Positions 11,211 through 29,708 of a stretch of DNA of 40,557 bases are shown piece by piece. The notes under the pieces were generated by a model. The model was not told the origin of the DNA. It ran no database searches and saw nothing but the letters and a program-made list of their open reading frames with translations. The DNA comes from Loktanella atrilutea. Lineage in GTDB: Bacteria; Pseudomonadota; Alphaproteobacteria; Rhodobacterales; Rhodobacteraceae. The stretch spans positions 1 through 40,557 of the forward strand of contig NZ_FQUE01000016.1 in the NCBI RefSeq assembly GCF_900128995.1, read 5' to 3'. A program made the translations under genes and the position numbers. Each line of letters starts with the position of its first letter. Position 1 is the first letter of the stretch.

Positions 11211-11329
11211 GGCGGCCGATAGGGTGGAGCTATATAAAACAGGGGTTTCATGGGTTCTTTGCGCTTTGGATCTTCCACGATGCGTGCTTTCCCGCCATGA
11301 TACGTGTGTAGCGTGCAAGGATTAGCCCC

Positions 11330-11974: not shown

Positions 11975-12088
11975 AGTCGATGCAGACTCGGTTGGAGAAG
12001 CGGGATTCCGGAACAAGCCCCGCGCGGTCCAAATGCATGGCTGTTCTGCCGAACCATGTTGGACAAATTAACGCTCTATTTTTTGACG

Positions 12089-12616: not shown

Positions 12617-12795
12617 GCTGGTTGTTCAGACTTAGTGCGTTCGATAGCGCGTCTGAATACATCCTTACGTACAACACGAACCGTCTTGCCATTCGGAAGA
12701 GTCATACTGCGAACCACCTTCACGTTGCCTGTGCGCGGCACAGTTTTCTCGTTGCTCTTCGACTTGCTATCGTTCGTTCGTCTGATGCCAAACAT
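12613..12795 (-). CDS. Small basic protein, first gene of small operon
   Basis: 60 residues, highly basic (MFGIRRTNDSKSKSNEK and later RVVRKDVFRRAIERTKSEQ). A beta-hairpin-like middle, NVKVVRSMTLPNGKTVRVVR, is followed by a helix. GGAGGG precedes the ATG by about 8 bases, so the start is firm. Upstream lie two palindromes (12807-12818 and 12819-12835) that look like operators. A small basic protein in front of a membrane protein, with operator dyads, recalls antitoxin or regulator plus effector pairs. No known antitoxin fold is recognised, so that is only a suggestion. Confidence 0.6.
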   Translation of the reverse strand: MFGIRRTNDSKSKSNEKTVPRTGNVKVVRSMTLPNGKTVRVVRKDVFRRAIERTKSEQPA

Positions 12796-12806
12796 TTCGA
12801 TGCCCT

Positions 12807-12818
12807 CCGTAATTACGG
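12807..12818. promoter_or_regulatory. Perfect 12-bp palindrome upstream of small operon
   Basis: CCGTAATTACGG is its own reverse complement and abuts the ribosome site of the 60-residue gene on the minus strand. A regulator bound here would block transcription or ribosome access, so an autoregulatory operator is plausible. Confidence 0.4.
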
Positions 12819-12835
12819 TTCAACATAGTGTTGAA
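12819..12835. promoter_or_regulatory. 17-bp dyad next to the 12-bp palindrome
   Basis: TTCAACA, three bases, then TGTTGAA: perfect 7-bp arms directly upstream (minus strand) of the previous palindrome. Two adjacent dyads in a promoter region suggest cooperative repressor binding. Confidence 0.4.
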
Positions 12836-12906
12836 GATACCCTTTTACATACACAAGCAATATTTTTGTTGTGTCTTGCATAGCGTAATCGGGGAGGCGT
12901 GGTCGT

Positions 12907-13250
12907 TCAGGTGGGGTAGTTCCACCGCATTAGCTCATCGACGTCAGCACTGGGTCAGTAGCCGGCGATGCACATCAAGGTCAGCGTCAGCCAGGCGACG
13001 GGGTCGACGCCGTTCATTTTACAGGTCTGCAGGAGTGTGGCGATCGTGGCGCACGTCCGGTCAACACCATCCGATCCGGCGAAGAGGCTGTTGTTGCGTG
13101 GATGGTCTGGGCTCTGATGACACGTTCGACGATATTCGAACCCAGCTCGACGCGGCTGTCGATCAAGAAGCGCTCGAAGATCTGACGGAGCGTCATGGCG
13201 TAACGCAGCACTTCTCCCAGCTTCGACTTACGAGATTCTCCAATTTTCAC
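12907..13250 (-). pseudogene. IS66-family transposase (TnpC) C-terminal remnant
   Basis: The minus strand from about 13250 encodes SKLGEVLRYAMTL...FERFLIDSRVELGSNIVERVIRAQTI, the end of the IS66 TnpC catalytic core with the conserved glutamate in NIVERVIR. A frame shift then moves the reading to AGSDGVDRTCATIATLLQTC, KMNGVDPVAWLTLTLMCIAG, a TGA, and finally DELMRWNYPT before the TGA at 12907-12909. Only about 110 codons of roughly 500 survive, with a frameshift and an internal stop, so it is dead. The remnant abuts the 3' end of the ietS-like gene at 13257. Confidence 0.85.
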
Positions 13251-15512: not shown

Positions 15513-16617
15513 TGTCAGCCTCGTTCAAAAGCCGAAGGGACCACTGTCGAGATACACCAAGAAGCTTAGCTATCTGCGGAGCGTTCAGGCCATGCTGTTG
15601 AAGATGTCGAGCCATTTCCTTGTTGTCCAATGCACCTTGCCGCCTTCGTTCTCCAGTATGGCCTTCAGACGTCCTTGCGTTAATAATGGCAGTCGTAACT
15701 TCACCTAAGTGCAGTTCATTTTTATTTAACAACATGCGCCGTCGAGCGGCCAGTGAAATTCGCTCGATATCTGCTCCTGTCAGGTTAGGTGAGATCACTG
15801 CCAGAATTTTACTAACACCTTCTGGGTCTTTGTCACCAAAGAGAAAATAATTCCACAGTGCTTCACGCACGGTTTCATTGGGCAGTCCTATTTCCAACTG
15901 ATAAGGAAAACGCCGCCATATTGCGGGATCGAGCAGCTGAGAGTGATTCGTCGCAGCTACAACTACAGCGCTATCGTCAAGCGAATCCAAGCCTTGTATT
16001 ACTGTATTTACAACTCGTTTTAGCTCCCCAAGTTCTTGACGATCATCGCGAAATTTGGCGACCGCGTCTATTTCATCCAAAAACAGGACTGCATTTTTAG
16101 TTGGAATAAAATCGAATACAGCCCGAACGTTTTTTGCGGTATCGCCGAGTAGTGAAGAGATTAAGCTGTCTAAGCGAACGACATAGAGAGGTCGGTTGAG
16201 TTGCGAGGCAATATGACCTGCGAGGAGGCTTTTTCCCGTCCCCGGCGGGCCGGACAGCATAATAGCAAGTCGCGATGCTATCCCATTCCTCGAAAATTCT
16301 TCTAAGTTTTGAGCGTCTGATACAAAATCAGCTATAGCCATATGCGCAGGTTCGTTGATGAATATCGGTGTCACGGGCCACTCCTGCTCTTCCACAAGCG
16401 GTAGTCGCGACTTCACGTCAACTGGTAGTTGCTCCATGTGGCCCGAGGCTCGTAAAGGTACCCCCTTTTTTCGCAACAGGCTCCGCAACGCCGTAGCCCC
16501 TTCTTCCTGACCATCATCTCCCATCACCCTCGCAATCGCGTTGGCCGCCTTGCGGACGCGTGGGTAGTCAGCGGCTAAGGCTGCCTCGACAAGTTCTATA
16601 ATTTTTTTCGGGTCCAC
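15505..16617 (-). CDS. ietA: IetA-like AAA+ ATPase with C-terminal helix-turn-helix
   Basis: 370 residues from the GTG at 16617. That start is chosen because AGGAG lies 5 bases before it and the protein then begins MDPKKIIELVEAALAADYPR; the open frame upstream is noncoding promoter DNA. The AAA+ core has Walker A GPPGTGKS (123-130), Walker B LFLDEID (178-184), sensor 1 AATNHS and the arginine pair in IWRRFPYQ. The last 40 residues (KEMARHLQQHGLNAPQIAKL, then LGVSRQWSLRLLNE) look like a helix-turn-helix, which could allow DNA binding and autoregulation. It is translationally coupled to the S8 protease. In the ietAS pair the ATPase acts as antidote or regulator of the protease; here that is inferred by homology. 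Confidence 0.87.
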   Translation of the reverse strand: MDPKKIIELVEAALAADYPRVRKAANAIARVMGDDGQEEGATALRSLLRKKGVPLRASGHMEQLPVDVKSRLPLVEEQEWPVTPIFINEPAHMAIADFVSDAQNLEEFSRNGIASRLAIMLSGPPGTGKSLLAGHIASQLNRPLYVVRLDSLISSLLGDTAKNVRAVFDFIPTKNAVLFLDEIDAVAKFRDDRQELGELKRVVNTVIQGLDSLDDSAVVVAATNHSQLLDPAIWRRFPYQLEIGLPNETVREALWNYFLFGDKDPEGVSKILAVISPNLTGADIERISLAARRRMLLNKNELHLGEVTTAIINARTSEGHTGERRRQGALDNKEMARHLQQHGLNAPQIAKLLGVSRQWSLRLLNEADNG

Positions 16618-16648
16618 GGAAGCTCCTGCTCGTCCTGCTCTTGGCTGG

Positions 16649-16677
16649 TATGTAAACAAAAATAACGATATTGACAA
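16649..16677 (-). promoter_or_regulatory. Sigma-70-type promoter for ietAS
   Basis: On the minus strand TTGTCA (16677-16672) and TACATA (16654-16649) are separated by exactly 17 bases, about 30 bases upstream of the ietA GTG. This is the best promoter match seen in this part of the window. Confidence 0.5.
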
Positions 16678-16706
16678 CAGAAAACATGAAGTGGTAGCCA
16701 TTATTT

Positions 16707-16720
16707 GCGCAATTTTGCGC
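16707..16720. promoter_or_regulatory. Operator-like dyad between divergent ietAS and small gene
   Basis: GCGCAA, TT, TTGCGC: a perfect inverted repeat in the 125-base region between the ietA start and the 68-residue gene. It is a candidate binding site for the helix-turn-helix tail of IetA. Confidence 0.4.
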
Positions 16721-16742
16721 ATCTTAGTCAAGAAAAGGAAAC

Positions 16743-16949
16743 ATGATGGCCAAGGGAACGATAGCACGGAGTGCTGGGACAGGAAGGTTCGTAACGAAGG
16801 CTCATGCGAAGCGGAGTCCAAACACTACGGTCGTCGAGCGGATCGGTGGTGGATCGACCAATGGGGCTGGTCGCAGCGCGATCAACGGCAAGTTTGTGGG
16901 CGCGAGCCATGTGAAGCGGCACCCTGGTACAACCATCAAAGACAGCTGA
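16743..16949 (+). CDS. Small basic protein with two internal repeats
   Basis: 68 residues, glycine-, serine- and lysine-rich, with ATG at 16743 preceded by AAAGGAA. It contains two copies of one motif: ARSAGTGRFVTKAHAKRSPNTT and, later, GRSAINGKFVGASHVKRHPGTT (short forms SxxxGxFVxxxHxKRxPxTT). Small proteins with this repeated G-x-F-V...R-x-P-x-T-T pattern are widespread on bacterial chromosomes and phages with no assigned function. It is divergent from ietA and shares its 125-base regulatory region. Confidence 0.6.
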   Translation: MMAKGTIARSAGTGRFVTKAHAKRSPNTTVVERIGGGSTNGAGRSAINGKFVGASHVKRHPGTTIKDS

Positions 16950-17112: not shown

Positions 17113-18462
17113 TCATGCGCGACTGATACTCTTGTATAGTGCACTCAACCCCTCATGCCGGACGCGAAACTGGCTCCGCCGCTTGATCACCGGCCGTGCT
17201 GATCCTGCGTCTTCCATCTTGATGCCCGGATCATAGTACACGCTTCCGGCTGAAATCGCCGCCAGCAGCAGGAGCACGTCAGTTCCTTCGCACAACTGCA
17301 CTACATTTCCATAGCTGTACTCCGGCGGGGGAAATTGCATCAGCGACGGTACATAGACAGCCTTAGCGTGCTTGCGGTTCCAGTGGGCCATGATCCCGCG
17401 GAAACCCCATGACGCTGCAACATTATCATCGCGGTCCAGCAGGACGATTCCGCCGTCGAGATCTGTGATCTTCCCCGTTGTCGTGTCGAACCCGTCAAGA
17501 CGCAGCATGAGGCCGGTGTCTGCGTGGAAATCACGGCTGGCGGTGTAGATCCCGCCGAAATTGATACGGTCCGCCTTTCCCGACTTATCGGCATAGCCAT
17601 AGCGGTGCAGAAACGCCGCAACGCCCTCTTCCCGGTACAGACCGCCAGTCGGTTCTGGTGTCATCAGGGTGACAGGGCTTCTCGCACGGTAGCTGGTAAA
17701 GTCACTCACCCCGTATTGCTTAACCTCCCACCCCATATAGTCCGGATCCGCGTAGCCGTTCGGAGCGATGCCCAGCTCGGCCTCCAGCGTATAGCCGCCG
17801 CCGTTGCGGGCGCTGTAGGGAGCCGGCACCCCTGCCCTGCCCATCTTCTGCGATGCGATCCAGCCTTTGGCATGAATGCGCCGGAGCGCTGCGAGCAGTG
17901 CGTCCTTCGGGTCTGTGCCGTCTTGGCGCAGTTTTTCCAGATCATGAAAGACGCCGGCCGTTTCGAGACTGGACGCTGCCGCGTCGAAGGCGTGGGCAAT
18001 GGGATCGTCGGCTGCAACGACCTGACCGAGGACGCGGCCATCGGCGCAGATCCCGAAGACCAGCACCCGGCCCTCGTCGCGCGACTTCATCAGGACATTC
18101 GGTGCACGTTCTGCTCCGCGCAGGAAGCCGGACATCCGTACTTCAGGATATTTCGGATAGAGGATCAGCTGCGCATCGGGCGCAAGTGCCAAACCATCTT
18201 CATCGAGCCAGAAGAAGCTTACCATGGCTTTGGCCCTGTCGCGGACGCTCCCCGCGCGGTCGCTGTCGTCGCCCTCGACCGGACCATGCGGAATGATGTT
18301 CAGAGCGCCAAAACCGCCGCCCAGATAAACTTGGTTCTTTGAGTTGTCATTGGGAGCAAGTCGTTTGGCGTAGAAGCGTACTGCCCCGTGGGCGGCCATC
18401 TGGTCAAGCAGGTGGGTAAGCGGTGTTATCAATCCATTGGCCTTATTCAATGCAGAATTCAT
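17113..18462 (-). CDS. MvaI/BcnI-family type II restriction endonuclease
   Basis: 449 residues from the ATG at 18462 (a TTG at 18471 is possible). The nuclease centre is visible: E229 in YTLEAELGIAPNG, then PDYMGWEVKQY with D241, E246 and K248, the PD-(D/E)xK motif of the MvaI/BcnI family. MvaI cuts CCWGG and BcnI cuts CCSGG. The Dcm-like methylase and Vsr 10 kb away favour CCWGG here, but specificity is not proved. The ATG lies inside the end of a decayed vsr copy, reproducing the normal vsr-REase overlap. Its methylase is not adjacent; it lies at 28488-29708 beyond the inserted helicase operon. A second, broken copy of this gene is at 27830-28074. Confidence 0.87.
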   Translation of the reverse strand: MNSALNKANGLITPLTHLLDQMAAHGAVRFYAKRLAPNDNSKNQVYLGGGFGALNIIPHGPVEGDDSDRAGSVRDRAKAMVSFFWLDEDGLALAPDAQLILYPKYPEVRMSGFLRGAERAPNVLMKSRDEGRVLVFGICADGRVLGQVVAADDPIAHAFDAAASSLETAGVFHDLEKLRQDGTDPKDALLAALRRIHAKGWIASQKMGRAGVPAPYSARNGGGYTLEAELGIAPNGYADPDYMGWEVKQYGVSDFTSYRARSPVTLMTPEPTGGLYREEGVAAFLHRYGYADKSGKADRINFGGIYTASRDFHADTGLMLRLDGFDTTTGKITDLDGGIVLLDRDDNVAASWGFRGIMAHWNRKHAKAVYVPSLMQFPPPEYSYGNVVQLCEGTDVLLLLAAISAGSVYYDPGIKMEDAGSARPVIKRRSQFRVRHEGLSALYKSISRA

Positions 18463-18580
18463 CTGAATCAAAGGACAGCCAGCGCGTCAGTGAGTCAATG
18501 ACATGACCGGTGACAGACCCCCCCTGCCTTTCAGGGCACATTCCCAGACAACGCCACAGCGCCAACTTGCGGCCGTAGCT
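18463..18580 (-). pseudogene. Decayed vsr 3' remnant
   Basis: This stretch is clearly homologous to 28080-28180, the end of the intact vsr gene. Both contain the phrases cacattcccaga and acgccacagcgcca and the codons for IDSL..WLS...EFCIE. The left copy has base losses that shift the frame (WRCLGMCPERQGGSVTGHV against WRCGVIWECALKGRGRLSPG). Only about the last 45 codons remain. Homology stops near 18580, which marks the left edge of the inserted helicase operon. Confidence 0.75.
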
Positions 18581-18700: not shown

Positions 18701-20440
18701 TTAAGACCTCCTCGCCTGAATGCGGCGGCCGAAATTCTCAGCCTGCCGCTCGTATGATTTGCGTTTGGCCGCGGGCACAAGAACGTGCAACAGTCCGCGC
18801 GCTCGAGAGAGGCCGGCATAGTGCAGCATAGACCACTTTGCGTCGCCGGTTTCCTCCATGTCGATCGCGATCACGACCTGCCGTTCCAGCCCCTTGAAGG
18901 CGTGCATGGTCGAGAAAAGGAGTGAGCCATTCCGGAGGGCGGTCTCATTTGAGGGATCAGCAAGCCGACGCCCCGCAATCTCGGTCCGTCCAGAGAGCAG
19001 CGAGTTCTCCCATCGGCGGGTCGACAAGATTGCAACGTCCCGAGGCGGGACGTCACGATCGAAAAGTTCGCGCAGGATCGTCTCGAGCTTCGCTACTCCC
19101 TCATCGGCGTTCGGATGATAGTGGACCTGGCACTGTGGTCCGTCTGGCGCTCCAGTAACCGCAAGGTCGATTCCTGACACGATCGATGCCTGTACCGCCA
19201 CCTGCCGCGTGTTCCGGCAATTCTCGAACAGGTCATCGAAGGCCGGGGCGCCCTCGGCGAGACGCTGTTCTACTAGATCCTGCGTCTCGACGCCATAAAT
19301 GTTCTGGAGCGGATCCAAGAAGATATGCCAGCAGCCGCGCCTGATGCCGTCACGCACGAGCAGGTCGAAAACATCCAAGTGCTCAGGGGTGAGGAGATCT
19401 TGGGCTTCGTCCACAACGAGTACATCCCACGGCTCCGACATCCGTGTGCAGAGCGCCTCAGCCGCGATCCCGGGAAAGCGCTTGGGGAAGAATTCGGGAT
19501 GTTCTGAATCCTCTGCCGCCAAACTGTCAAGCAGTCCGGCCGAAGCAATCAAGTCACGATAAAGCGCGTGGACGTGCCGCACTTCGAGCGTGGCAGCTCT
19601 CTGATCGCCCGCAAAGCCGTTGCGTATGTGACCGGCTAGCAGCTGGTTGAAGCACAGCATGAGCACTTTTTTCCCGTCAGCGGAGAGCTGCTTCGCACGT
19701 TCGAGCGCAATGACCGATTTGCCTGTCCCCGCGGCCCCGCGCACGACTGTGCGGGGGTTAGCGGCGAGACGACGTGACGTTCGGATCTGCTCGTTCGTCA
19801 GCTGGAGTAGCCGCTCGTCCACTCCGGTAAGATAGCCGCCGAGGCTCAGCGCCGTGTCGAGGTCGGGTCGCAGGATCTGCCGCGCAAGCTTGATCTCGTC
19901 CGGCTTGAGTCCCCGGTAAGTTTTTCCGCGCTTGTCGAGGCAGACGCCGTTCCAATGGCGTTGCAAGGCGGAAATGTAGTGCCCCAGCGTGTCGCGGAAC
20001 TGTCGCTTATCGAGCAAAACCTCTGAGACGATCTCAGCACCTTTCGTTGTAAATTGCGTGTAGGGCATAATCACGCCGAAGCCGAACAGCACGTCCTTGA
20101 AGGAGCCGGCTGCCCGCTGGAGCTGGTCGCGCACAGTGTTCATAGCGCCGGACGCCTGCTTCCACGGACTCTCATACTTGCTGTACGACCGGAAGTCGCC
20201 GGAGAAGGTCCACACACCGTCAGCGCACGAGACCTTACCTCCCTTGACTTCGAGCGCGAAAACGCCGTGGCTGGAAAGGACGATCATGTCCGCTTCTCCC
20301 CAGATTTTCGTCTCGTGACCGGGCAGTCCCAGCGAGTGCAGGATAATCCAGTTGTCGGGAAGCTCCCGGCCGAGTCGCTCGTAGACGAGCCGCTCGCTGT
20401 TCGGACAGTTCACCGGAACGTCGGGGATCAGGACGGCCAT
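18701..20440 (-). CDS. NERD nuclease-UvrD/Rep-like SF1 helicase fusion
   Basis: 579 residues. The N-terminal NERD domain (residues 12-130) carries the nuclease signature D51 (GEADMIV), E64 and K66 (FALEVKGG). The rest is an SF1 helicase: motif I GAAGTGKS (235-242), motif II DEAQD (344-348), motif V-like STMHAFKGLERQVV and motif VI YAGLSRARG. The start has GAGGAGG 4 bases upstream and overlaps the DrmB-like gene by 13 bases. It is last in a tight four-gene operon. NERD-helicase fusions are found in defence islands and probably process foreign DNA. In this locus it may substitute for the PLD nuclease DrmC of DISARM, which is absent. That substitution is inference. Confidence 0.87.
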   Translation of the reverse strand: MAVLIPDVPVNCPNSERLVYERLGRELPDNWIILHSLGLPGHETKIWGEADMIVLSSHGVFALEVKGGKVSCADGVWTFSGDFRSYSKYESPWKQASGAMNTVRDQLQRAAGSFKDVLFGFGVIMPYTQFTTKGAEIVSEVLLDKRQFRDTLGHYISALQRHWNGVCLDKRGKTYRGLKPDEIKLARQILRPDLDTALSLGGYLTGVDERLLQLTNEQIRTSRRLAANPRTVVRGAAGTGKSVIALERAKQLSADGKKVLMLCFNQLLAGHIRNGFAGDQRAATLEVRHVHALYRDLIASAGLLDSLAAEDSEHPEFFPKRFPGIAAEALCTRMSEPWDVLVVDEAQDLLTPEHLDVFDLLVRDGIRRGCWHIFLDPLQNIYGVETQDLVEQRLAEGAPAFDDLFENCRNTRQVAVQASIVSGIDLAVTGAPDGPQCQVHYHPNADEGVAKLETILRELFDRDVPPRDVAILSTRRWENSLLSGRTEIAGRRLADPSNETALRNGSLLFSTMHAFKGLERQVVIAIDMEETGDAKWSMLHYAGLSRARGLLHVLVPAAKRKSYERQAENFGRRIQARRS

Positions 20441-22320
20441 GCGGCCTCCTCGACGGCGTCGCCGAAGAACCCCGCGAAAGCGCCATCTGGCTCGCCGACG
20501 AGCGCGGTTCTGTCCAATTCGCGGTTGAAGCGCTCACACGCCGTTTCCGGCAGTAAGAGACAGCAATGGCATGCAGCCCCGCTGACCCGGTCGCCGGATT
20601 GTCGCGGATCGCTTTCAAGGCAAACGGGATCGCTGCCGCACCACGCGGCATTTGCCAGCGTCCGAAGCACGATTGGCTCCAGCAGGGCTGGCTCGGCCAG
20701 ACGAACGAGCCCTCCGAGGCTGCCCTCGGAATCAGGGGAGCCTGTGTAGACAAGGACGCCGTTCATAGGACGTCCTGGGTCGTCCGAAACGTACAGCCGC
20801 TCCCGGAGCGCCGACGCGGAGTAACCGCATTCGACGGAAATCTGTCGGATGAGGGCGTGCGCAAATGCGTGTACAAGCAGGAGGCGCGGCCCAATCGTGT
20901 AGTCCCGCTCGTAGCCTCGCTGCTCGGCAATCTGGCGGCTGCGCATCTCCAGGATGGCGGCCCGGGCCACGACGCCCTCATTGTCTGCGATCCAAGCGTC
21001 CACAGCCGTAGTTTTGAACCGCAGGAATATGCCCTCACCCCTGATCTCCGCGCCTGGAAGCCAGCTGCGCTCGGTCTTGGATAGTGGCGAAACCTTGCCC
21101 TCGGCGATAGCCTGTCGTACCCGGTCAGCGCCTACTGGATAGGGTTCGATACGCGAGAAGCCGGCAAGTGCCCGCACCTCTCTTAGTCGTGAAGCGGCCC
21201 CGATGAGGTCAAACCAACGCGCGAGCGCAGGCGGCGGCGCAAGCAACTCATTGCGGAATTGCGGTATGACCCCGCCGATAATTGGGTCGTCGCGGTCCTG
21301 CGAGAGGGCATCGTATTCCTGTTCGCGCGCGACCCGCTCGGTGAGTGAAGGCCCTCCAACTTCCTGCGAGCGCATTCGCAGGTATGCTGCCAGCAGTTGG
21401 TCAACAGATACGTTGTAAGTCTGGCTAACGCCGATGAGTACGGAAGGCAGTGCCGCCTCCGGCACTCCGTCCAAAAACATCCTAGACTGCTCTACGATCT
21501 GGCTCAGCGCCTCCGAGGCAGGAGGTATTGAGAGCGAGGAACCTACGACGGCGAAGTGCACATTGGAGGCACCACGTTGCAAAGCGCGGACGGGTTCTCC
21601 GCAGTCGGGCTGGTAGTCGTGGAGCCATGGGCGGAAGCCGTCGCAGCGCAGACCCATGAGCGCGCTCGCCCCGAACGCGGTACCTAAAGACTGGCGGGTA
21701 GGATGTTCGGGCGTGCTGCAGGAATCGCATTGCACATACAGATCGTCGAGCGAAGCCGAATGGCCGCGGGAGCCGAGCTTCAGGACGGGCCGGGGGCAAA
21801 TTCCCTCGTCCCGGCCGCGGTGTGCCCACCATTCCCAAGGGAAGTCGCTGAGGTGTCCTCGCCGGCAGGCAACCACAAAGCGGACCGGGTTCGTGTAAAC
21901 TTTACCGGTATGACCGGTGCAGCGTAACCTCGCGCCATCGTCGGCCAATTCAAATGGCGAACCCTCCCGCCCGATCCGATGGCACTTGGGGCATTCGTGC
22001 CACTTAGGGAATCTGACAGCGGGGGCGGCGCTGCGCGCGCGTACTTTCGTTGTCCCGGGGATCTGCTCTTTGACAGGACCGAGGCGGAAGTGGCTGACGC
22101 CCAGCATCGACTGTAGCCGCTCCTCTCCGATCCGAAGCGAAGGAACGGAGTTGATCCGCTCCCAGTCCTCGAGTCCCATCGGCATAAACGAGCCTTTCTC
22201 GAGATCGACAATCGCGCCGATGGCGAAGCCGGAAACGAGCTGGGATCGCCTTACCGTGCCGATCGGCTCGACGGCGTCTGTGGCTTGGGGCGCATGCGCC
22301 CCGCGTGGTCGTCTGCCCAA
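20428..22320 (-). CDS. drmB: DrmB-like DUF1998 protein
   Basis: 630 residues starting at a TTG (22320) with a perfect AGGAGG 7 bases upstream; that ribosome site is embedded in the last codons of the DrmA-like gene. Cysteine pairs suggest zinc sites (HECPKCHRIG, CDSCSTPEHP). The C-terminal DUF1998 region is clear: HAFAHALIRQISVECGYSAS, NGVLVYTGSPDSEGSLGGLV and GAACHCCLLLPETACERFNR. The last phrase is highly characteristic of DrmB. DrmB partners the DrmA helicase in DISARM, where the complex recognises and blocks incoming unmodified DNA. The gene is translationally coupled on both sides. Confidence 0.87.
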   Translation of the reverse strand: MGRRPRGAHAPQATDAVEPIGTVRRSQLVSGFAIGAIVDLEKGSFMPMGLEDWERINSVPSLRIGEERLQSMLGVSHFRLGPVKEQIPGTTKVRARSAAPAVRFPKWHECPKCHRIGREGSPFELADDGARLRCTGHTGKVYTNPVRFVVACRRGHLSDFPWEWWAHRGRDEGICPRPVLKLGSRGHSASLDDLYVQCDSCSTPEHPTRQSLGTAFGASALMGLRCDGFRPWLHDYQPDCGEPVRALQRGASNVHFAVVGSSLSIPPASEALSQIVEQSRMFLDGVPEAALPSVLIGVSQTYNVSVDQLLAAYLRMRSQEVGGPSLTERVAREQEYDALSQDRDDPIIGGVIPQFRNELLAPPPALARWFDLIGAASRLREVRALAGFSRIEPYPVGADRVRQAIAEGKVSPLSKTERSWLPGAEIRGEGIFLRFKTTAVDAWIADNEGVVARAAILEMRSRQIAEQRGYERDYTIGPRLLLVHAFAHALIRQISVECGYSASALRERLYVSDDPGRPMNGVLVYTGSPDSEGSLGGLVRLAEPALLEPIVLRTLANAAWCGSDPVCLESDPRQSGDRVSGAACHCCLLLPETACERFNRELDRTALVGEPDGAFAGFFGDAVEEAAWPS

Positions 22321-22321
22321 T

Positions 22322-25300
22322 TCAATTCCTCCTGGTCATAGTCTTGAGGACAAACGCCGTTGATGGCTCGACCTCACGCATTGAGTTGGGCGTTGGCCAC
22401 GCGAGCGCTCCCGGTATTGTTCCTTCCTCTGCTGACGTCATCAGATGAGGCTTGGTCCGCCCGTACGGAGCGGGGCGTTCCCAATAGACCAATTCGGTGC
22501 CGGATGCCCGCGCGTTCTGGCTGCGCATGGCCCACTCCTCTAGGATGGCGTTAAGGTCGTCAGACGCGTCATCCGCCTCCACGCCCTCGGACGATGTTCG
22601 GGCTCGGTGGCGGATAACCTCCACGAGCGCCAGTACGTCGTCGGTCTGCGCATCGAAGTCGGCGGCAGCACTGTCGTCGTCCATACCAGCCGACAGGTGG
22701 CGGACGGCCGCTGCGACTACCGCGTGGAGGGCCTTGTCCCGTGCCCGCGGGGCCCAAGGTGTTACACTAGTTGCCTCGACGCTGCGGTAGAGTGCACCGT
22801 GGTACCCAAGAAAGTGCTCGAAGTGGGAAATGTCCCGCGGACGTCCGAAGTTGTAGAGCGTGAGCACCATTCCATCGATACCACGGCCGACGCGGCTGCT
22901 GGCCTGGATGTACTCCGCTGTGGACTTCGGTTGCCCGTTCACAAGCATGAGCCCAAGGCGGGAGACGTCGACGCCGACCGAGATCATGTTCGAAGCAAGC
23001 ACCGCGTCCCGTGGTTCCGGCGTGAAGGGGTCCGTGCCGTCCATAAGCGGATGGCTTAGCTGGCCGAGGTAGTCAGGCAAGTTGCGTGACGCCACGCGGC
23101 TGCTGAGTTCGATTGCATCGGTCTCCAAAATACGGGGCTGCGACGCGAGGCGTCCGGCGAGGAACGCGATCTGGCGGGGAATATCGTCTTGGAGCAGGAT
23201 GTGCGCACCGCCAAGCTCGCGCAGACTATTGAAATAGAGGACTGTGGTCCAGAACGGGTCGGCAATCGAAGGCGGCGTGCCGATGCTCACCAGATAGCCA
23301 ATCCCTTGGAGCAGGGCCGCAGCCCCTGCCTGGAGCGCGAACTTGGGACTTCTTCCGGCCGAACAGAGGCCGACGTACAGCCGGTCGGGACCGTCCTCGT
23401 CCTGTACCGCAAAGAAGGAATCTGAGGCCTCGAAGCCTGAGGGCGGAAACTGGAGGACGGGCCGGTCGAAAAGCGCACGTACCTGCCGCGAGGCCTGTCC
23501 AATCGTAGCGGTCGATCCGATTACCTTAGGCCGGACACCCTCGTTGGTGCACAACATGTCCACAACGGTCTCGTACAACCCTGCCATCGAGCCGAGCGGC
23601 CCGGAAATGAGGTGGAGCTCGTCCTGGATGATCAGTCCGGGCCTGAGCCCGCCGTCTAGTCCAAACAGCGTGCGCAAGTCTCTGCGGCGCGGTAGTTGGG
23701 CGAATTTGTCGATAGTTCCGATAAGAAGGCTAGTCGGTGTCCCGTAAATGAAGTCATCGACGGTCAGCACCGGCAGCGGTTTGTTAGCTGTTTCGCAAGA
23801 AGCGTTGGCGCAGCGGATATCTATGCCAGTTCCCTGACCGGTCACCTTATAGCAGTTCACATCAAGGGCGGAGCCGCAGACGGGGCAGTCGAGCAGTTGG
23901 CATGGGGTCGACTTCGGCTGCTGGCCGTCGTGCTCGAGAGCCAAGGCATCAATCGCGGTGGCGGTGCGGTTTGGCGTAGCGTCGCCTCCAACGTAGAGGC
24001 CAAGCGTTATTGGGGCGTCGCCGAGGTCGCCGCGTTCGCTCCGGATCGCATCGCAGGCGCAGATCAGCGATGCCGCGCGCTGGAACTGCTGCACCGTCAG
24101 GAGCCGGAGCGTGTAGCGCATAAGGACGTCTACACCTCCCTCATCTCGGCGGTCTGCATCCGTAAGCCTGCGGTGAAGTATCTGAAATGCGGTAAGGCCA
24201 AGATAAGCCTCAGTTTTGCCACCGCCTGTCGGAAACCAAAGCAGGTCGACGTCGTCGCGGTCCGCATCCGCTGGATCGACGAGACCCGGCACAACCATCA
24301 GGAAGTAGGCCAGCTGGAAGGGGCGCCACGTGAGGGGGCCAGCCCGGTCGCCCTTCGCGCCGAACCTCGACTGGCGGTCCATTGCGGCGTTGGCTAGGGT
24401 GAACGCGGTCCATGCGTTGTCATCACGTACCAAGGTCGCGATCCCTGCGCGGATGCGCCGCAGAGCATCACTGCACCGCCCGAGGTTGCGTCCGGCAGCA
24501 GTCCCGAGTTCACCCTCGAAGTCGCCTGCCCGCGGCGTAAGGTCGGACCAGATCCAAGCTTCGTAGACGTCCGCGAAGCCTCCAAGCACTTTAAGGATTT
24601 CATCGCGGGCCCCGGCCCGGGCCAGCCATTCAGCTGATAGAGACTGAGGGTTGACTGCCAGAAACGACACAAGGCTGGGATGACCGGACGCGCTGGTGCC
24701 CTTTACCACGGATGTTGGCATCCACGTCGTATTGATGCTGGCGACCCTTTGCTCCGGTGTGGGCTCCCATGCGACTGCGATACCGTGGCCTACAGCATAC
24801 TCTAGGACGTTACGGTAGAGGAGCGCGGCGGACTGAGCATCCTCATCGGCGCCTGCAAACGAAGGTGTAGGCCGGGGACGAATCGCACCTTGGCCGGCTG
24901 GCGTCACCGCATTCACTTTGAGGCCTGACTGAAGCAGGCATAATTCGTCTCTCAGACGGTCCTCGGTCGGCTGCGCCTTGTTGATTAGCGTCACTGTGAG
25001 GATCTGCCGGCCGTCCGCAATGCGGCGTCGGATATGCAGCCGCACTGACGGATCGCTGACCTGCTGGCCGTCCGGTGCGATAAAGTCCTGAACCTTCCAA
25101 GTCCTCGCAGGGCCTGGCACGATCTCGTATTGGTATCCGAGTTGCCGCCGTGTCCACATCCGCCGCGGTTTACCGCCCTGCGTGCAGGCCTCGCGTTCTA
25201 CGGCCGTGTAGCGAGCAGTTTCGGCCGTTGAGACACGCACTGTGGTACCATCGTCGACGGCGAAGGTTAGTCCAAGTGAGCATGGCCGAACCGCGCGGTA

Positions 25301-25528
25301 ACCCGGCACGCCTTGGTCGCGTTCGCCATCAGCATCGGATGGCGACCCCTCATCCTGATCGTCCTCAGTCGCGTCGAGCGTTTCCCCCTCGGGCCAGAGT
25401 ATGCCAGTGACATAGGTGTCGACCGGTGCCGAGGGGATCTCTTCGTCTGCGGCGAGCGGCCCTAGCAAAAGCGCTCTGGCGATCTCCAGCAGCGCGGTAC
25501 GTGCGGGGCGATGGTCGGGACGTGTCAT
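22322..25528 (-). CDS. drmA: DrmA-like SF2 helicase (YprA type)
   Basis: 1068 residues. Helicase motifs: Walker A WFPTGGGKTEAYLGL (431-445), DELH box IIQDELHLISGPLG (634-647), motif III STATIG (672-677), and motifs V-VI SVGVDVSRLGL to QASSRVGRG (850-883). A four-cysteine insert (CPVC at 548-551, then IRCANASCE) sits before the DELH box, as in DUF1998-associated helicases. The first 400 residues are a family-specific region without known catalytic motifs. It overlaps the upstream UvrD-like gene by 4 bases (ATGA) and ends 1 base before the drmB start. Together with DrmB it forms the conserved DISARM core, but drmC, drmD, drmE and a dedicated drmM are not in the operon. Confidence 0.88.
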   Translation of the reverse strand: MTRPDHRPARTALLEIARALLLGPLAADEEIPSAPVDTYVTGILWPEGETLDATEDDQDEGSPSDADGERDQGVPGYRAVRPCSLGLTFAVDDGTTVRVSTAETARYTAVEREACTQGGKPRRMWTRRQLGYQYEIVPGPARTWKVQDFIAPDGQQVSDPSVRLHIRRRIADGRQILTVTLINKAQPTEDRLRDELCLLQSGLKVNAVTPAGQGAIRPRPTPSFAGADEDAQSAALLYRNVLEYAVGHGIAVAWEPTPEQRVASINTTWMPTSVVKGTSASGHPSLVSFLAVNPQSLSAEWLARAGARDEILKVLGGFADVYEAWIWSDLTPRAGDFEGELGTAAGRNLGRCSDALRRIRAGIATLVRDDNAWTAFTLANAAMDRQSRFGAKGDRAGPLTWRPFQLAYFLMVVPGLVDPADADRDDVDLLWFPTGGGKTEAYLGLTAFQILHRRLTDADRRDEGGVDVLMRYTLRLLTVQQFQRAASLICACDAIRSERGDLGDAPITLGLYVGGDATPNRTATAIDALALEHDGQQPKSTPCQLLDCPVCGSALDVNCYKVTGQGTGIDIRCANASCETANKPLPVLTVDDFIYGTPTSLLIGTIDKFAQLPRRRDLRTLFGLDGGLRPGLIIQDELHLISGPLGSMAGLYETVVDMLCTNEGVRPKVIGSTATIGQASRQVRALFDRPVLQFPPSGFEASDSFFAVQDEDGPDRLYVGLCSAGRSPKFALQAGAAALLQGIGYLVSIGTPPSIADPFWTTVLYFNSLRELGGAHILLQDDIPRQIAFLAGRLASQPRILETDAIELSSRVASRNLPDYLGQLSHPLMDGTDPFTPEPRDAVLASNMISVGVDVSRLGLMLVNGQPKSTAEYIQASSRVGRGIDGMVLTLYNFGRPRDISHFEHFLGYHGALYRSVEATSVTPWAPRARDKALHAVVAAAVRHLSAGMDDDSAAADFDAQTDDVLALVEVIRHRARTSSEGVEADDASDDLNAILEEWAMRSQNARASGTELVYWERPAPYGRTKPHLMTSAEEGTIPGALAWPTPNSMREVEPSTAFVLKTMTRRN

Positions 25529-27720
25529 TTTTTAGCCTTTCGCAGCTGGAAGTCGCCCGTGCCGAAAAGCCCAACGCCGAGCCACAGTCCACTCGTCCGT
25601 TCCGGGTCCCCGAGTCTAGACATATCATCCGAGGTGATCGTGCCCACGCCGGAGATGCGCAGATTCATGATGACGGGTGGCAGCGAGAGCCCTTTCTCGT
25701 AAAGGATCTTCAACAAATCGACTGACAGCTGGTTTGCCGTGCGCCCCATCAGACGGCCTGGTTTTTTGCCGTCCTGCAGGTGAATGTACCACACAGCCTT
25801 TGCGTCAGCGTATTGTTTGCACAGCATGACTTTGCGGCCGGCCAGTCCGCCAGCTTCGGCTAGGAGAAAGGACTGCAACTCCTCCACTCCCTCCTTATCG
25901 CCAAGTAGAGTTGGATCGGCGAAGCCGAGCGGGTCTATATCGCCACGTAATCCCATCTCCATATTGATCCACTTAAACGACCGCTGGCACAGCCTGCTGC
26001 GCCCGCCAGCGAACTGCCAGTGCCTAGGTGCTCTATGGATTGAATCAGCTGGCGCACGGTCAAGGGTACGTGCGGCGCGGGTCATAGCGACATATACGAC
26101 GCTCGCCCGCTCTCCCACTTCCCCTGATAGCTCAGTCTGGCCGTGTTTCTCATCCTCCTGCCCCTCTCGGGTGCCCAGCAGGGTGACAGCATCGAACTCC
26201 ATGCCCTTAGACTGGTGGACGGTGGTAACGATCACCCCGTCTTCGGCAACAAGCTGATCATCAGGGAAAGCGTCAGGCCAAGACAGTCGCATGCGCAGCT
26301 CAGTTACGTCGACCGAATTGTCTTCCTCACTGCCGCCAGCGGCGCGTGCGAGGCGGGACCACGCGACGTCCTCTTCGGGCAGATTCAGCCGGCTGCAGGT
26401 CGCATCGCCCCAAGCTGCCGCGAGATGTGCGTGAATCTTCCCAAACTGGGTACGTGTGAGCAACGTCGAGCGGAGCTTTCTCAGTAGGGCTCCGATCCAG
26501 GCAGGCGGCAGGGTGGCGTGCCCGCCAGCGTATAGCCTCACCGGCACCGCCGCTCCATCAGGCTCTGCACCGTAAAGTGACTGAAGGACGCGGAGAGCCT
26601 CACCATTTGTTTGCGTGAGGATGGCGCGGCTGCCGACTGTCGACGCCTCTAGAAGGACGCGCCCAATTGGCTGTGCGGGTGCAGGCAGCGCGGCAACCGC
26701 TGCCATCGTCACTCGGAACTTCTCCTCCTCGGGCTGGTCGCTGAGCAGAATAGCCCTAAGCGTCCTTGACATGTGGGCGAGCGGTGGATCGGAGCGGTAG
26801 TTCCGGGTGAGCTTCTTCTGCTCAAGCTCTTTACTGTAAATGCGGCACACCTCACGCCAGTATTCTAGCGGAGTAGGAAACGGTTCACCGTCGTCGCGCA
26901 TGCCGCGGGCAAAGCCGAAGATAGCTTGGGCCGGATCACCCAAGATCGTGAAGCCGCAACCCGGCTGTTCCGGGGGAGCCATCAGCGCGAGCAAAGCAAG
27001 AACGAGGTCACCCCGGACCCCGGGGAGATCTTGAAACTCATCTACGATGAAGTGTCGGCGATCGCCCATCAAAGTTCTAAGGTCGTCACAACGCGGTCCC
27101 TTTGCTATCTCGGTCAGCGCCGCAACATTCGCGTCATGCCCCCGTGTCAGCAGCGTGTGCGGCGCTTCACCAAGCAGCCTAAGCATCCGGAACGCCCAAG
27201 AATCGAAAGTGCGGACCGATAGGTGACGCAACTCCTCAACGACACGGGGGTCAGTTTCAACGATTTTGCCGAGCCGTCGCGTCAGCGTCCTCACGGCACT
27301 GCGGGAAAAACAGAGCACGAGTATTTGCCCGGGGGATAGCTCAGTCCGAACTAGGTTGGCGATGCGGCGTGCCGCCATCTCGGTCTTACCGGTCCCAGGC
27401 CCCGCTTCAACGAGCAGGCGGGCCGAAGCAGGTGCGGCCGCAATGTAGGACCGGACGTCGGATTCGTCTACTTCCGCTTGCTCCGTTCCCTCCTGTGCCA
27501 AGGGGACGTGATTGTCTGGTTTCAGTTTCTCCGTTTTTTCTTGTGCCGGTGAAACGAAATCGTCAAGCGACGGCCCATCAATGTCGATACGGCCGTTCTT
27601 GAGGCGCCACAACTGGCGGCGGAAGGCAACTGCGGGGCCGTCACAGACCTCCCGCAGCGGACGCTCGATCGTCTTTATGATACGACCAGCCCTGTATACT
27701 ACAACTTTTACGGTGCTCAT
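25525..27720 (-). CDS. UvrD-like SF1 helicase, first gene of the DISARM-like operon
   Basis: 731 residues from the ATG at 27720, preceded by GGAGGG; a GTG at 27768 is less likely. Motif I EAGPGTGKT (105-113), motif II VDEFQD (226-231), motif V region VIVTTVHQSKGMEFDAV and motif VI YVAMTRAAR identify an active SF1A helicase. The first 100 residues (VVVYRAGRIIKTIERPLREV...) are a separate small domain I do not recognise. The final 150 residues after the helicase core are also unfamiliar. It leads the operon and is coupled to drmA by an ATGA overlap. Having two SF1 helicases, one at each end of a drmAB operon, is unusual compared with described DISARM types. Confidence 0.87.
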   Translation of the reverse strand: MSTVKVVVYRAGRIIKTIERPLREVCDGPAVAFRRQLWRLKNGRIDIDGPSLDDFVSPAQEKTEKLKPDNHVPLAQEGTEQAEVDESDVRSYIAAAPASARLLVEAGPGTGKTEMAARRIANLVRTELSPGQILVLCFSRSAVRTLTRRLGKIVETDPRVVEELRHLSVRTFDSWAFRMLRLLGEAPHTLLTRGHDANVAALTEIAKGPRCDDLRTLMGDRRHFIVDEFQDLPGVRGDLVLALLALMAPPEQPGCGFTILGDPAQAIFGFARGMRDDGEPFPTPLEYWREVCRIYSKELEQKKLTRNYRSDPPLAHMSRTLRAILLSDQPEEEKFRVTMAAVAALPAPAQPIGRVLLEASTVGSRAILTQTNGEALRVLQSLYGAEPDGAAVPVRLYAGGHATLPPAWIGALLRKLRSTLLTRTQFGKIHAHLAAAWGDATCSRLNLPEEDVAWSRLARAAGGSEEDNSVDVTELRMRLSWPDAFPDDQLVAEDGVIVTTVHQSKGMEFDAVTLLGTREGQEDEKHGQTELSGEVGERASVVYVAMTRAARTLDRAPADSIHRAPRHWQFAGGRSRLCQRSFKWINMEMGLRGDIDPLGFADPTLLGDKEGVEELQSFLLAEAGGLAGRKVMLCKQYADAKAVWYIHLQDGKKPGRLMGRTANQLSVDLLKILYEKGLSLPPVIMNLRISGVGTITSDDMSRLGDPERTSGLWLGVGLFGTGDFQLRKAKK

Positions 27721-27829: not shown

Positions 27830-28074
27830 TGTGTCCCTTCGCAAAGCCCCACAATTAGCCCCATAGCTTTACTCTGGCGGGAGAACTGCATCAGGGAGGG
27901 TACTCAAACCGCCTTGGCATGCTTGCGATTCCGGTGGGCCATGATGCCTGGACAGAACATGATACGACTTCGTTGTCTTAGCGGTCGTGCCGCCCCGTGG
28001 GCGGCCATCTGATCAAGCAGGGGGGTAAGCGGCGTTATCAATCCATTGACCTTCAATGCAGAATTCAACTGCAT
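27830..28074 (-). pseudogene. Broken second copy of the MvaI/BcnI-type endonuclease gene
   Basis: The minus strand starts as the intact enzyme does: MQLNSALKVNGLITPLTPLL, then DQMAAHGAARP, against MNSALNKANGLITPLTHLLD in the intact copy. After about 35 codons it jumps to the segment GIMAHRNRKHAKAV and SLMQF...LCEGTH, which corresponds to residues of about 355-395 of the intact protein. About 300 internal codons and the 3' end are missing, and frames are broken, so it cannot be functional. The DNA matches 17310-17400 and 18400-18480 well but not perfectly, so this is an old or independently acquired copy rather than a recent duplication. Confidence 0.8.
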
Positions 28075-28495
28075 CAGAGGACAGCCAGCACGCCAGTGAG
28101 TCAATGTCATGGCCGGGTGACAGACGCCCCCTGCCCTTCAGAGCACATTCCCAGATAACGCCACAGCGCCAGCCGGCGGCCCGGGCCGCTGCCCATGTGG
28201 CAGCGTCCCGTTCCTGATTGCGCCCGATCTTGGCCCGCCAGAAGTCCTCACGGCTCTTAGGCCAGTGAAACAGCGGGCAGCTGTGTCCGTGCCAGAAGCA
28301 GCCGTGGACCCAGAGCAGCGCATGATATTTCGGAAAGACCAGATCCGGCCTGCCGGGGAGGTCACGGCCCTGCAGTCTGAATCTGAACCCCTGTGCGTGC
28401 AGTCCTTTGCGGATGATCAGCTCAGGTTTTGTATCCCGGCTGCGGATGGCCGCCATATTGCGGCTCCGGGTTGCGGGATCATGTACATCAGCCAA
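28013..28495 (-). CDS. vsr: Very-short-patch repair endonuclease Vsr
   Basis: 160 residues from a TTG at 28495. That start is supported because the protein then begins MADVHDPATRSRNM, like Vsr proteins generally, and the codon sits in the 8-base overlap with the methylase gene. Catalytic features match the family: D51 in LPGRPDLVF, H64 in VHGCFWHGH and H69. Vsr nicks beside T:G mismatches that arise when 5-methylcytosine deaminates in the Dcm context (CTWGG), so it protects sites methylated by its neighbour. Its 3' end overlaps the start of the broken endonuclease copy, the original gene order being methylase-vsr-nuclease. Confidence 0.92.
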   Translation of the reverse strand: MADVHDPATRSRNMAAIRSRDTKPELIIRKGLHAQGFRFRLQGRDLPGRPDLVFPKYHALLWVHGCFWHGHSCPLFHWPKSREDFWRAKIGRNQERDAATWAAARAAGWRCGVIWECALKGRGRLSPGHDIDSLACWLSSDAVEFCIEGQWIDNAAYPPA

Positions 28496-29708
28496 CTTTG
28501 CGCAGGTCCTGCCCTTCGGTCAGCGACAGAATATGCGGCCGCATCAGGCGGGCCACCTCGGCAAAAACCGGCACGGCAACCGAGTTGCCGAACTGTTTGT
28601 AAGCCTGTGTGTCCGAAACCGGAATCCGGAAGCTGTCGTCATAGCCCATCAGGCGTGCGCATTCCCGCGGCGTCAGACGACGCGGGTTCTGGCCCGGGCC
28701 ACGGCTGACGAGGATCTCAGAGCCGTCCTTGTAGTAGCGTGCAGACAGTGTCCGCGAGATGCTGTCAGGGGTCACCAGACCGAACCCGAACCCGTTGCCG
28801 GCCGCTTTGTGCTTGGCCGCGTATCCCTGCAGGTACTGCCAGAGCTTGTCGCTGAGCGTATATTTGTCGCTCACCTTTGCATCCGGACCTACTGTGAAGT
28901 GACTTTCCGGTACTTCAGTCCCGTCTTCGGGATGCAGAACGTCGCGCATACCACGCCCTGCCCTGCCGGCCAGAACAAGGTCATCGAAGGAAAAGCGGGT
29001 CTTTTCCCGGAAGCCGACCATAACGATCCGTTCGCGGTGCTGAGGTACGAAGTTCGCTGCATCGATGATCCGGGTATGCAGCGTATAACCCAGTTCCTCA
29101 GTCAGCTTGCGCCTGATCACATTAAATGTGCGGCCCTTATCATGGCTTTTGAGGTTCTTGACGTTCTCCAGCAGAAACGCCGCCGGGCGATGATGCATCA
29201 GAATGCGCAGCACGTCGAAGAACAACGTGCCCTGGGTTTCATCCTGAAATCCGTGCAACCGGCCTAAGGCGTTCTTCTTGGAGACGCCCGCGATGGAGAA
29301 TGGCTGACAGGGAAACCCGGCGACCAGAACGTCGTGCTCGGGGATGTTGGCAGCATCCACATCGCGGATGTCGCCTGCGATCGGCCGGTTGTCCGGAAAG
29401 TTGGCGTGATAGGTCTTCTGGGCAAAGGCATCCCATTCCGATGTGTAAACACAACGCCCGCCCGCACTGGCCATCGCTTTGCGCAACCCGCCGATCCCGG
29501 CGAAGAGATCGATGAAGGTGAAGGCTCCTTCAGGCTGTGCGCCCTTGTGCGTATCGATATGCATACGCAGCAGATTGATGACACCGTCCCGCGGCACTTC
29601 TTCGCCCCGTTTCCACCGGTAGACGTGGCCTTCAGAGTATCCGAGCACCTTAGCAGCCTCAGCAACACTCCAGCCCGTCTGCTGAACCAGCATTTCAAAT
29701 TCGGTCAT
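28488..29708 (-). CDS. C5-cytosine DNA methyltransferase (Dcm-like) with N-terminal HTH
   Basis: 406 residues. Residues 5-50 are a helix-turn-helix (WSVAEAAKVLGYSEGHVYRW) as in Dcm/M.EcoRII enzymes that repress their own promoter. Methylase motifs: I IDLFAGIGG (66-74), IV GFPCQPFS with catalytic C134, VI ENVKNL (181-186), VIII QHRERIVMVG and X GNSVAVPV near the end. The target-recognition region lies between VIII and X (about 230-330). A Vsr partner and an MvaI/BcnI-type nuclease point to CCWGG-type specificity. It provides protection for the nuclease 10 kb away and may also mark self DNA for the DISARM-like operon, which lacks its own methylase. The last point is inference. Confidence 0.92.
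   Translation of the reverse strand: MTEFEMLVQQTGWSVAEAAKVLGYSEGHVYRWKRGEEVPRDGVINLLRMHIDTHKGAQPEGAFTFIDLFAGIGGLRKAMASAGGRCVYTSEWDAFAQKTYHANFPDNRPIAGDIRDVDAANIPEHDVLVAGFPCQPFSIAGVSKKNALGRLHGFQDETQGTLFFDVLRILMHHRPAAFLLENVKNLKSHDKGRTFNVIRRKLTEELGYTLHTRIIDAANFVPQHRERIVMVGFREKTRFSFDDLVLAGRAGRGMRDVLHPEDGTEVPESHFTVGPDAKVSDKYTLSDKLWQYLQGYAAKHKAAGNGFGFGLVTPDSISRTLSARYYKDGSEILVSRGPGQNPRRLTPRECARLMGYDDSFRIPVSDTQAYKQFGNSVAVPVFAEVARLMRPHILSLTEGQDLRKVG

Follow-up and report, generated by a model that had tools for sequence, protein, structure and literature searches.

Which nuclease would serve DISARM-type helicase proteins when DrmC is not found beside them? According to PMC9142583 (here and below, statements credited to a paper refer to the available part of its text), the nuclease step of DISARM is unexplained: DrmC is dispensable and often missing, did not co-purify with Serratia DrmAB, and those who solved the DrmAB structure propose that nucleases are borrowed. 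The question is raised by four minus-strand genes of Loktanella atrilutea, at positions 18,701 to 27,720 of contig NZ_FQUE01000016.1, which we analysed over its whole length of 40,557 nucleotides (the window). In order, they encode a UvrD-type helicase, DrmA, DrmB, and a NERD nuclease domain fused to a superfamily 1 (SF1) helicase. We favor the reading, at a probability of roughly 0.64, that this operon is a DrmC-less relative of DISARM in which DrmAB would open invading DNA, UvrD would unwind it and the NERD-helicase would degrade it. Its function is most likely anti-phage.

Four coupled genes and their predicted roles

All four reading frames are intact, and the genes are as tightly coupled as a preliminary description of the locus had claimed: UvrD and DrmA overlap by 4 bases, DrmA and DrmB are separated by 1, and DrmB and the NERD-helicase overlap by 13. 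PADLOC, NCBIfam, Pfam and PDB matches agree on the gene identities proposed there. Promoter and terminator scans gave counts near those of shuffled sequences, and were dropped as evidence. The features of the operon are as follows (aa, amino acids; ORF, open reading frame; SF2, superfamily 2).

25525..27720, minus strand: UvrD-type SF1 helicase, 731 aa from the ATG at 27720, C-terminal domain at about residues 590-747 of the 747-aa ORF (Pfam UvrD-helicase/UvrD_C)
22322..25528, minus strand: DrmA, YprA-family SF2 helicase, 1068 aa, short form (PADLOC, NCBIfam, 7s9v_A)
25286..25390, minus strand: acidic loop, DrmA residues 47-81 (12 D/E, 3 K/R), where Serratia DrmA has its autoinhibitory trigger loop (alignment)
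20428..22320, minus strand: DrmB, OB-CON-DUF1998/MZB partner of DrmA, 630 aa, TTG start (NCBIfam, Pfam MZB, 7s9v_B)
18701..20440, minus strand: NERD nuclease domain (Pfam match at residues 15-109) fused to an SF1 helicase, 579 aa (Pfam, PADLOC)

DrmA and DrmB were recognized by PADLOC (E-values 2.9e-217 and 1.1e-71), and Pfam MZB also matches DrmB. Both proteins that DISARM type I calls for in this pair are present: DrmB scored 482.7 bits, above the DrmB_fam cut-off of 240, and DrmA scored 915.6 bits, just under the DISARM_DrmAS cut-off of 950. The only PDB sequences matched by either protein at E ≤ 0.001 were Serratia DrmA and DrmB (7s9v/7s9w; 4.5e-156 for DrmA against 7s9v_A, and 2.3e-85 for DrmB against 7s9v_B). 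They are encoded by separate adjacent genes, as the DISARM-like branch requires (a split YprA helicase and DUF1998 protein; PMC12458937). The helicase motifs of DrmA were invariant in nine aligned sequences, and acidic residues outnumbered basic ones in the loop (D+E > K+R) in 92 of 93 aligned DrmA rows. The remaining row, locus L029 of Acetobacter okinawensis (L numbers denote loci), is cut at that place; its DrmA lies in two overlapping ORFs (10001-13206), which points to a gene disruption or to an error in assembly. In Serratia, the trigger loop closes DrmAB and 5'-tailed DNA opens it (PMC9142583); because the window DrmA keeps an acidic loop at the same position, DrmAB may serve as a sensor of DNA ends. 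One variant of DrmB was seen in passing, at L022:12022-14880, where a GHKL-type ATPase domain is fused to its C-terminus and no NERD-helicase was called.

The fourth gene matched Pfam NERD (1e-10) and SLFN-g3_helicase (4.6e-9). PADLOC matched it to RTasNERD-Hel (5.8e-30), and its helicase part weakly to Nhi and AbiO. Its AlphaFold2 (AF2) model had a mean predicted local distance difference test score (pLDDT) of 88.9, and the nearest folds were SLFN11, Upf1 and UvrD-like helicases. The preliminary description had pointed to D51, E64 and K66 as retained nuclease residues; these, together with E49, were invariant in 29/29 aligned NERD-helicases and in six more relatives (3 of the 38 cluster members, L017, L042 and L070, were left out of the alignment). 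These nuclease residues and the three Walker motifs of the operon make the nuclease question directly testable.

The first gene matched Pfam UvrD-helicase (2.1e-20). Its mechanically called ORF starts at GTG 27768 (747 aa), but the ATG at 27720 looks the better start, as had been suggested: ggagggtta-atg lies just upstream, and model residues 1-16 have pLDDT < 50. Walker residues G125, G127, K128, T129, D243 and E244 (747-aa numbering) were invariant in the 38 aligned of 61 cluster members. The AF2 model (pLDDT 84.9) had UvrD as best PDB match, with UvrD, PcrA and Rep folds matched, and its C-terminal domain beyond the helicase was well predicted. A 20-row profile of this domain, scored on up to 18 candidates per genome, found it in 3/196 genomes, each time directly beside DrmA and in no other place. 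We also considered whether the UvrD protein is a form of DrmE, and rejected this; no NCBIfam DrmE match was found at 0.001, nor any genome-wide, and DrmE was also missing from the 25 families listed, out of 68, when 30 relatives were scanned with PADLOC.

From these parts we propose the following scheme. DrmA and DrmB would form a two-subunit YprA helicase that the acidic loop keeps closed. A single-stranded or recessed phage DNA end would displace the loop, as the Serratia DrmAB structure suggests. UvrD, which co-occurs with DrmA, may use its dedicated C-terminal domain to dock on DrmAB, and would load on or extend the opened strand. The NERD-SF1 fusion, given its conserved active-site residues, could then cut the exposed DNA in place of the phospholipase D (PLD)-type nuclease DrmC. 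With the polarity and substrate presumed here, the four proteins would work much as AddAB/RecBCD do, as a helicase-nuclease with several motors. Self DNA would escape chiefly because DrmAB stays closed on duplex DNA, and nearby C5-cytosine methylases, outside the conserved block, may add protection.

DrmC, gene order and the DrmA tree

The operon contains no DrmC, DrmD or DrmE, as had been noted before, and nothing in the genome scored above their cut-offs. The search for DrmC used the class I DrmC profile and a general PLD profile, with no class II DrmC profile; the best DISARM_DrmC_I scores were 37.8 and 25.3 bits (cut-off 133), and PLDc_2 matched only ORFs of 476, 576 and 750 aa. These weak PLD matches, all under cut-off, led us to reject a DrmC elsewhere in the genome. 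DrmD reached at best 37.8 bits (cut-off 610), and DrmE (NF038316) had no match. DrmMI was absent among the nine window genes scanned by PADLOC; for the other window genes the scan was by Pfam only, and no DrmMI search was made beyond the window. DISARM type I is defined by DrmA, B, C, D and MI all being present, and type II by DrmA, B, C, E and MII (PMC9252829). Both published definitions fail here because DrmC, DrmD and DrmE were not found over cut-off. That is, the profile search of the genome did not place the operon in a described DISARM class with drmC elsewhere, the outcome that the preliminary description had named as contrary to its proposal. Detection that depends on DrmC would miss the operon, and this applies to the DISARM I and II definitions published for PADLOC (PMC9252829).

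Gene order was compared in 94 loci including the window, drawn from plasmids (85 records matched, 9 fetched), genomes of the order (6 stretches) and GTDB contigs (best 80 of 588 confirmed). Two loci were dropped: L020 (same contig as L036) and L096 (DrmA ORF lost in the overlap filter). DrmC, UvrD, NERD and methylase clusters were obtained by BLAST/Louvain grouping and spot-checked by Pfam and PADLOC. We coded the UvrD cluster as U, the NERD-helicase as N, the DrmC-type PLD nuclease as C and another SF1 helicase as h, beside DrmA (A) and DrmB (B). The architectures were U-AB (30), U-AB-N (22), AB-C (10), AB (8), N-AB (7), AB-h (4), N-AB-h (4), U-AB-h (3), U-A? (3), AB-N (2) and N-U-AB (1). The UvrD cluster was present in 59/94 loci and DrmC in 10/94, yet no locus had both, and NERD-helicase and DrmC were likewise never found together. 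In eight loci without a called NERD or DrmC, absences are weak, with < 5 kb available downstream of DrmA. The DrmC clusters were checked by one scanned member each, in every case a PLD protein; PADLOC named neighbors of DrmC loci as DrmMI (L077) and DrmD (L023).

The four-gene order of the window was found in 22/94 loci, including distant genomes, so the lack of conservation that had been named in advance as a refuting outcome did not appear. By record labels, these loci belong to Pseudomonadota, Acidobacteriota, Balneolota, Bdellovibrionota, Bacillota, Chloroflexota and Actinomycetota; outside Pseudomonadota all are metagenome-assembled genomes or uncultured, except L085. Protein identities to five relatives (L026-L030) were 65-75% for DrmA, 52-66% for UvrD, 69-81% for DrmB and 62-78% for the NERD-helicase, with the two DrmA pieces of L029 at 67 and 80%. 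DNA similarity to Paracoccus L026, Sphingomonas L027 and Acetobacter L029 ran from window position 18726/18774 to 27435/27468, inside the four genes; beyond them, L027 and L029 matched only in short stretches of the Vsr endonuclease gene. L028 matched in pieces of the operon, plus the methylase and Vsr genes on the other strand, and L030 in pieces of the last three genes. No whole-operon nucleotide match was found in plasmids at megablast sensitivity. DrmA was patchy in the order (6/196 genomes).

The DrmA tree (93 rows, IQ-TREE, L046 left out) was supported by Shimodaira-Hasegawa approximate likelihood ratio tests (SH-aLRT) only. One branch (SH-aLRT 99) had on one side all 10 DrmC rows and 4 rows without a called partner, and on the other side 79 rows, including all those with the UvrD or NERD cluster. 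The window fell in a six-row clade composed entirely of U-A-B-N loci (support 100). The fewest changes on the tree were 5 for UvrD, 10 for downstream NERD and 3 for DrmC; thus, DrmC and UvrD largely follow lineage, and the NERD partner has been exchanged more often.

From gene-order conservation, the DrmA tree and the lack of any DrmC, DrmD or DrmE over cut-off in the genome, the operon looks like a DrmC-less variant of DISARM not previously described. The DISARM-like clade holds many uncharacterized DISARM-like classes (PMC12458937). No description of a UvrD-DrmA-DrmB-NERD operon was found in the available text of the literature searched (including PMC12458937, PMC9142583, PMC11090510, PMC10853773, PMC12839542, PMC10952713, PMC10270631 and PMC9252829), most subscription papers and supplements being outside its scope. 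The earlier proposal of a distinct DrmAB-based type, with the NERD-helicase standing in for DrmC, was supported by these three lines of evidence but has to be narrowed, as the four-gene order is one of several forms in a larger DrmC-less branch. The operon shows a branch in which a nuclease-helicase is encoded in place of DrmC, which was not found.

A broader reading, which we hold tentatively and at slightly worse than even odds, is that a large DrmC-less UvrD-DrmA-DrmB branch exists, in which three motors and a NERD nuclease might combine into a single machine to degrade phage DNA, starting at exposed ends, and whose partners would be swapped between lineages: NERD-helicase, sacsin-like/RadD-like helicase, HSP70-like protein, or DrmD-like helicase with methylase. 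If true, this branch answers which nuclease DISARM-type helicases use without DrmC.

Several observations weigh against this interpretation of the operon and its branch. No NERD-helicase was found near 30/94 loci with UvrD-DrmA-DrmB (some contigs end early); therefore another nuclease acts there, or cutting is not essential. The 10 changes of downstream NERD mark it as an exchangeable partner, on a tree that was quick and without bootstrap. In 2/22 U-A-B-N loci another gene intervenes, separating U from A in L037 and B from N in L104. The profile of the UvrD C-terminal domain missed genome G132, whose UvrD gene adjoins DrmA divergently. A short DrmA N-terminus does not mark the UvrD/NERD branch: 46 residues precede the shared motif in the window and 168-185 in DrmD/DrmMI-linked (class 1) rows, but five other DrmC rows have 45-69. 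UvrD-type helicases of another cluster, c39, stand beside DrmA in three Bacillaceae loci:

L054:7828-9747, divergent from DrmA: c39 UvrD-type helicase
L063:8017-9864, divergent from DrmA: c39 UvrD-type helicase, locus with DrmC
L084:8020-9894, divergent from DrmA: c39 UvrD-type helicase, locus with DrmC

Because L063 and L084 carry both proteins, the presence of a UvrD-type helicase does not in itself rule out DrmC. Lastly, the 80 contig loci were picked by likeness to the window DrmA, which biases frequencies towards its relatives. In a less biased sample, DrmB was over cut-off in 11/398 Pseudomonadota genomes, of which only the window's own and G014 had U-A-B-N. Among the other nine, DrmC was present in L122, L123 and L124, NERD-A-B in L128 and L130, A-B-h in L129, and DrmMI-A-B without a DrmC match in L126 and L127; L125 was too short to tell. 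DrmC-less forms are common, and the exact four-gene order is not the majority.

Other genes stand next to UvrD, DrmA or DrmB in relatives. A gene of ~1600 aa (clusters c8 and c17) immediately precedes UvrD in 23 loci, the majority from Actinomycetota but also including Sphingomonas L027; it has a C-terminal helicase (RadD-like in L067) and a weak sacsin-type N-terminal match. HSP70-like genes (clusters c36 and c35) lie directly upstream of UvrD in 7 loci, 6 labelled Bacillota and 1 Synergistota. Examples are:

L067:2995-8067, L041:3408-8120, L027:2883-7646: ~1600-aa gene
L050:6182-7621, L064:4405-5883: HSP70-like genes, family checked by Pfam in these two

A divergent pair beside UvrD (L012:586-6479, L022, L033, L036, L039, L040) encodes an SNF2/DpdE-like helicase, scanned in the L012 copy, and a protein of ~1000 aa. 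We could not name the latter (Rhizobium/Rhodobacterales), as its L012 copy had no Pfam or PADLOC family and a nine-row profile reached a best PDB E-value of 0.14. In L082, L091 and L098 the NERD-helicase is upstream of DrmA-DrmB and a ~1050-aa protein follows DrmB; the L082 protein, the one scanned, matches MzaA and MzaB profiles.

The restriction-modification locus and rival readings

The operon sits inside a restriction-modification (R-M) locus, as described earlier, with a C5 methylase and Vsr upstream and an MvaI/BcnI-family restriction endonuclease (REase) downstream:

28488..29708, minus strand: C5-cytosine DNA methylase (Pfam DNA_methylase 1.1e-82)
28013..28495, minus strand: Vsr mismatch endonuclease (Pfam Vsr 4.3e-33)
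17113..18471, minus strand: MvaI/BcnI-family restriction endonuclease (Pfam MvaI_BcnI 2.2e-37; 87% to a Gemmobacter plasmid)
27986..28181, unstranded: direct repeat, left copy, vsr 3' end/REase 5' start (three ungapped pieces align to the right copy at 89-91%)
18377..18574, unstranded: direct repeat, right copy, the same ~200-bp vsr/REase junction
27857..27948, minus strand: REase gene remnant between the Vsr and UvrD genes (82% to Gemmobacter L110:6072-6164, within its REase; 80% to window 17328-17397)

The two repeat copies, ~200 bp long and ~9.6 kb apart, bracket the operon, which separates Vsr from the REase. Methylase, Vsr and MvaI/BcnI REase are contiguous on Celeribacter and Sagittula plasmids, and the stretches in question have no annotated drm gene. 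In Gemmobacter, Vsr and REase adjoin, the methylase stretch matches as DNA with its gene unlisted, and again no drm gene is annotated. Because the vsr/REase junction is duplicated and a REase fragment was left behind, the arrangement fits entry of the operon by recombination at a duplicated R-M locus. The R-M genes, contiguous on other plasmids and split here, are separable from the operon. R-M units of this kind do recur: one adjoins the U-A-B-N operon of Rhizobium TA1, a methylase and MvaI/BcnI REase lie near an A-B-h operon on a Photobacterium damselae plasmid, five other loci have EcoRII-type endonucleases, and L060 has an MvaI/BcnI one.

These neighbors bear on the best-surviving rival, which we nonetheless consider unlikely: that the operon is a reduced DISARM class 2, with the adjacent C5 methylase as DrmMII, methylation sparing self DNA, and UvrD and NERD-helicase as accessories. 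The methylase does score as DrmMII (2.3e-136), but higher as an ordinary type II enzyme (MTase_II, 2.5e-148). C5 methylases (clusters c9, c13, c15 and c18; in c9, 10/10 scanned of 18 members were C5 methylases) occurred in the fetched flanks of 15/22 U-A-B-N, 14/37 other UvrD, 8/11 NERD-first, 4/10 DrmC and 7/14 other loci, and in 6/6 loci of the window's clade; the L012 dcm gene, cut at the locus edge, is outside the 15. The family background, 186 matches in 149 genomes, 84 of them with any, gives an estimate of < 0.01 expected per 20 kb. Against a class 2 reading, the neighbor methylases belong to four different clusters and are encoded on either strand, and co-location in defence islands could by itself produce the enrichment; the contiguous methylase-Vsr-REase stretches of Celeribacter and Sagittula, with no drm gene annotated, and the DrmE and DrmC results given above also oppose it. 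C5 methylases are frequent neighbors across the branch, and it cannot be told whether they serve the system or share a defence island with it. The earlier suggestion that the methylase marks self DNA was less well supported, given the duplicated junction and the drm-free stretches, although a functional link is possible in view of the 15/22 count.

It is decidedly improbable that two independent modules adjoin here, DrmAB with UvrD as one system and a self-sufficient Nhi-like NERD-helicase as the other. The helicase part's weak matches to Nhi and AbiO would suit this explanation, as would the NERD-helicases that lie upstream of DrmA (12/94 loci) or were not found nearby. However, the NERD gene overlaps drmB by 13 bases in the window, directly follows drmB in 21/22 U-A-B-N loci, and belongs with the other three genes to one DNA-similarity block in L026, L027 and L029. 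UvrD is also among repair enzymes. A repair or plasmid-maintenance helicase set comparable to MrfAB/YprAB, rather than an anti-phage system, is the least probable reading, for although the operon is on a plasmid and YprA-family helicases include repair enzymes (PMC12458937), its split DrmA/DrmB and profile scores place it in the DISARM branch, its presence is patchy and its R-M neighbors are recurrent.

The favored reading, a DrmC-less DISARM relative, also agrees with a defence setting, as R-M genes and an IetAS-like pair share one plasmid. The window is one whole contig of the 4.2-Mb L. atrilutea genome. Because the ends of window 1-40557 overlap exactly over 95 bases, this contig probably represents a circular plasmid (~40.46 kb), on which RepA, ParA, ParDE, TraG and MobA genes are found. 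Downstream of the REase, an AAA ATPase/subtilase pair (window 13257-16821) matches PADLOC IetA and IetS, and is likely a further defence system. A row of family 8 glycosyl hydrolase, HlyD-like and cellulose-synthase-like glycosyltransferase genes (window 2746-7094) is a possible exopolysaccharide cluster.

Comparison with known systems

DISARM classes 1 and 2 share with the window separate adjacent DrmA and DrmB genes, an R-M neighborhood and an acidic loop at the trigger-loop position. They differ in that the operon is without DrmC, DrmD, DrmMI and DrmE, and has UvrD and the NERD-helicase instead; the long N-terminal region of class 1 (DrmD/DrmMI-linked) DrmA is also missing from the window DrmA. 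ARMADA type II is likewise a four-gene system with a YprA-family helicase and a GajB/UvrD-like helicase, but there the SF1 helicase bears a RelE-like domain, DUF1998 and the YprA helicase form a single protein, and genes resembling BrxHII and PglX belong to the set (PMC12458937). The window DrmB is separate, and no BrxHII-like or PglX-like genes were found among the nine window genes scanned. TALON shares a YprA helicase with a NERD-type nuclease, and has its own TPR-CSD and TBP genes, an inactivated RNase H-fold fusion and no split DrmA/DrmB (PMC12458937). TPR-CSD and TBP genes were absent from the Pfam matches of the 29 window ORFs scanned. We rejected membership in ARMADA, BRIGADE or TALON, as gene content differs, and likewise the McrBC-associated DISARM-like cassette, which has a SWI2/SNF2 and PglX context and no UvrD or NERD in its main text, as far as available (PMC11090510).

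The fourth gene resembles Nhi, Nhi-like and reverse transcriptase-associated NERD-helicases in joining nuclease and SF1 helicase in a single chain, as its RTasNERD-Hel match indicates. Those proteins act alone or with a reverse transcriptase, whereas the window gene overlaps drmB. AddAB, AdnAB and RecBCD combine several UvrD-type motors with a PD-(D/E)xK nuclease, and all three were among the fold matches of the UvrD model. This likeness is of parts only, and to such parts the window adds an SF2 motor, DrmAB.

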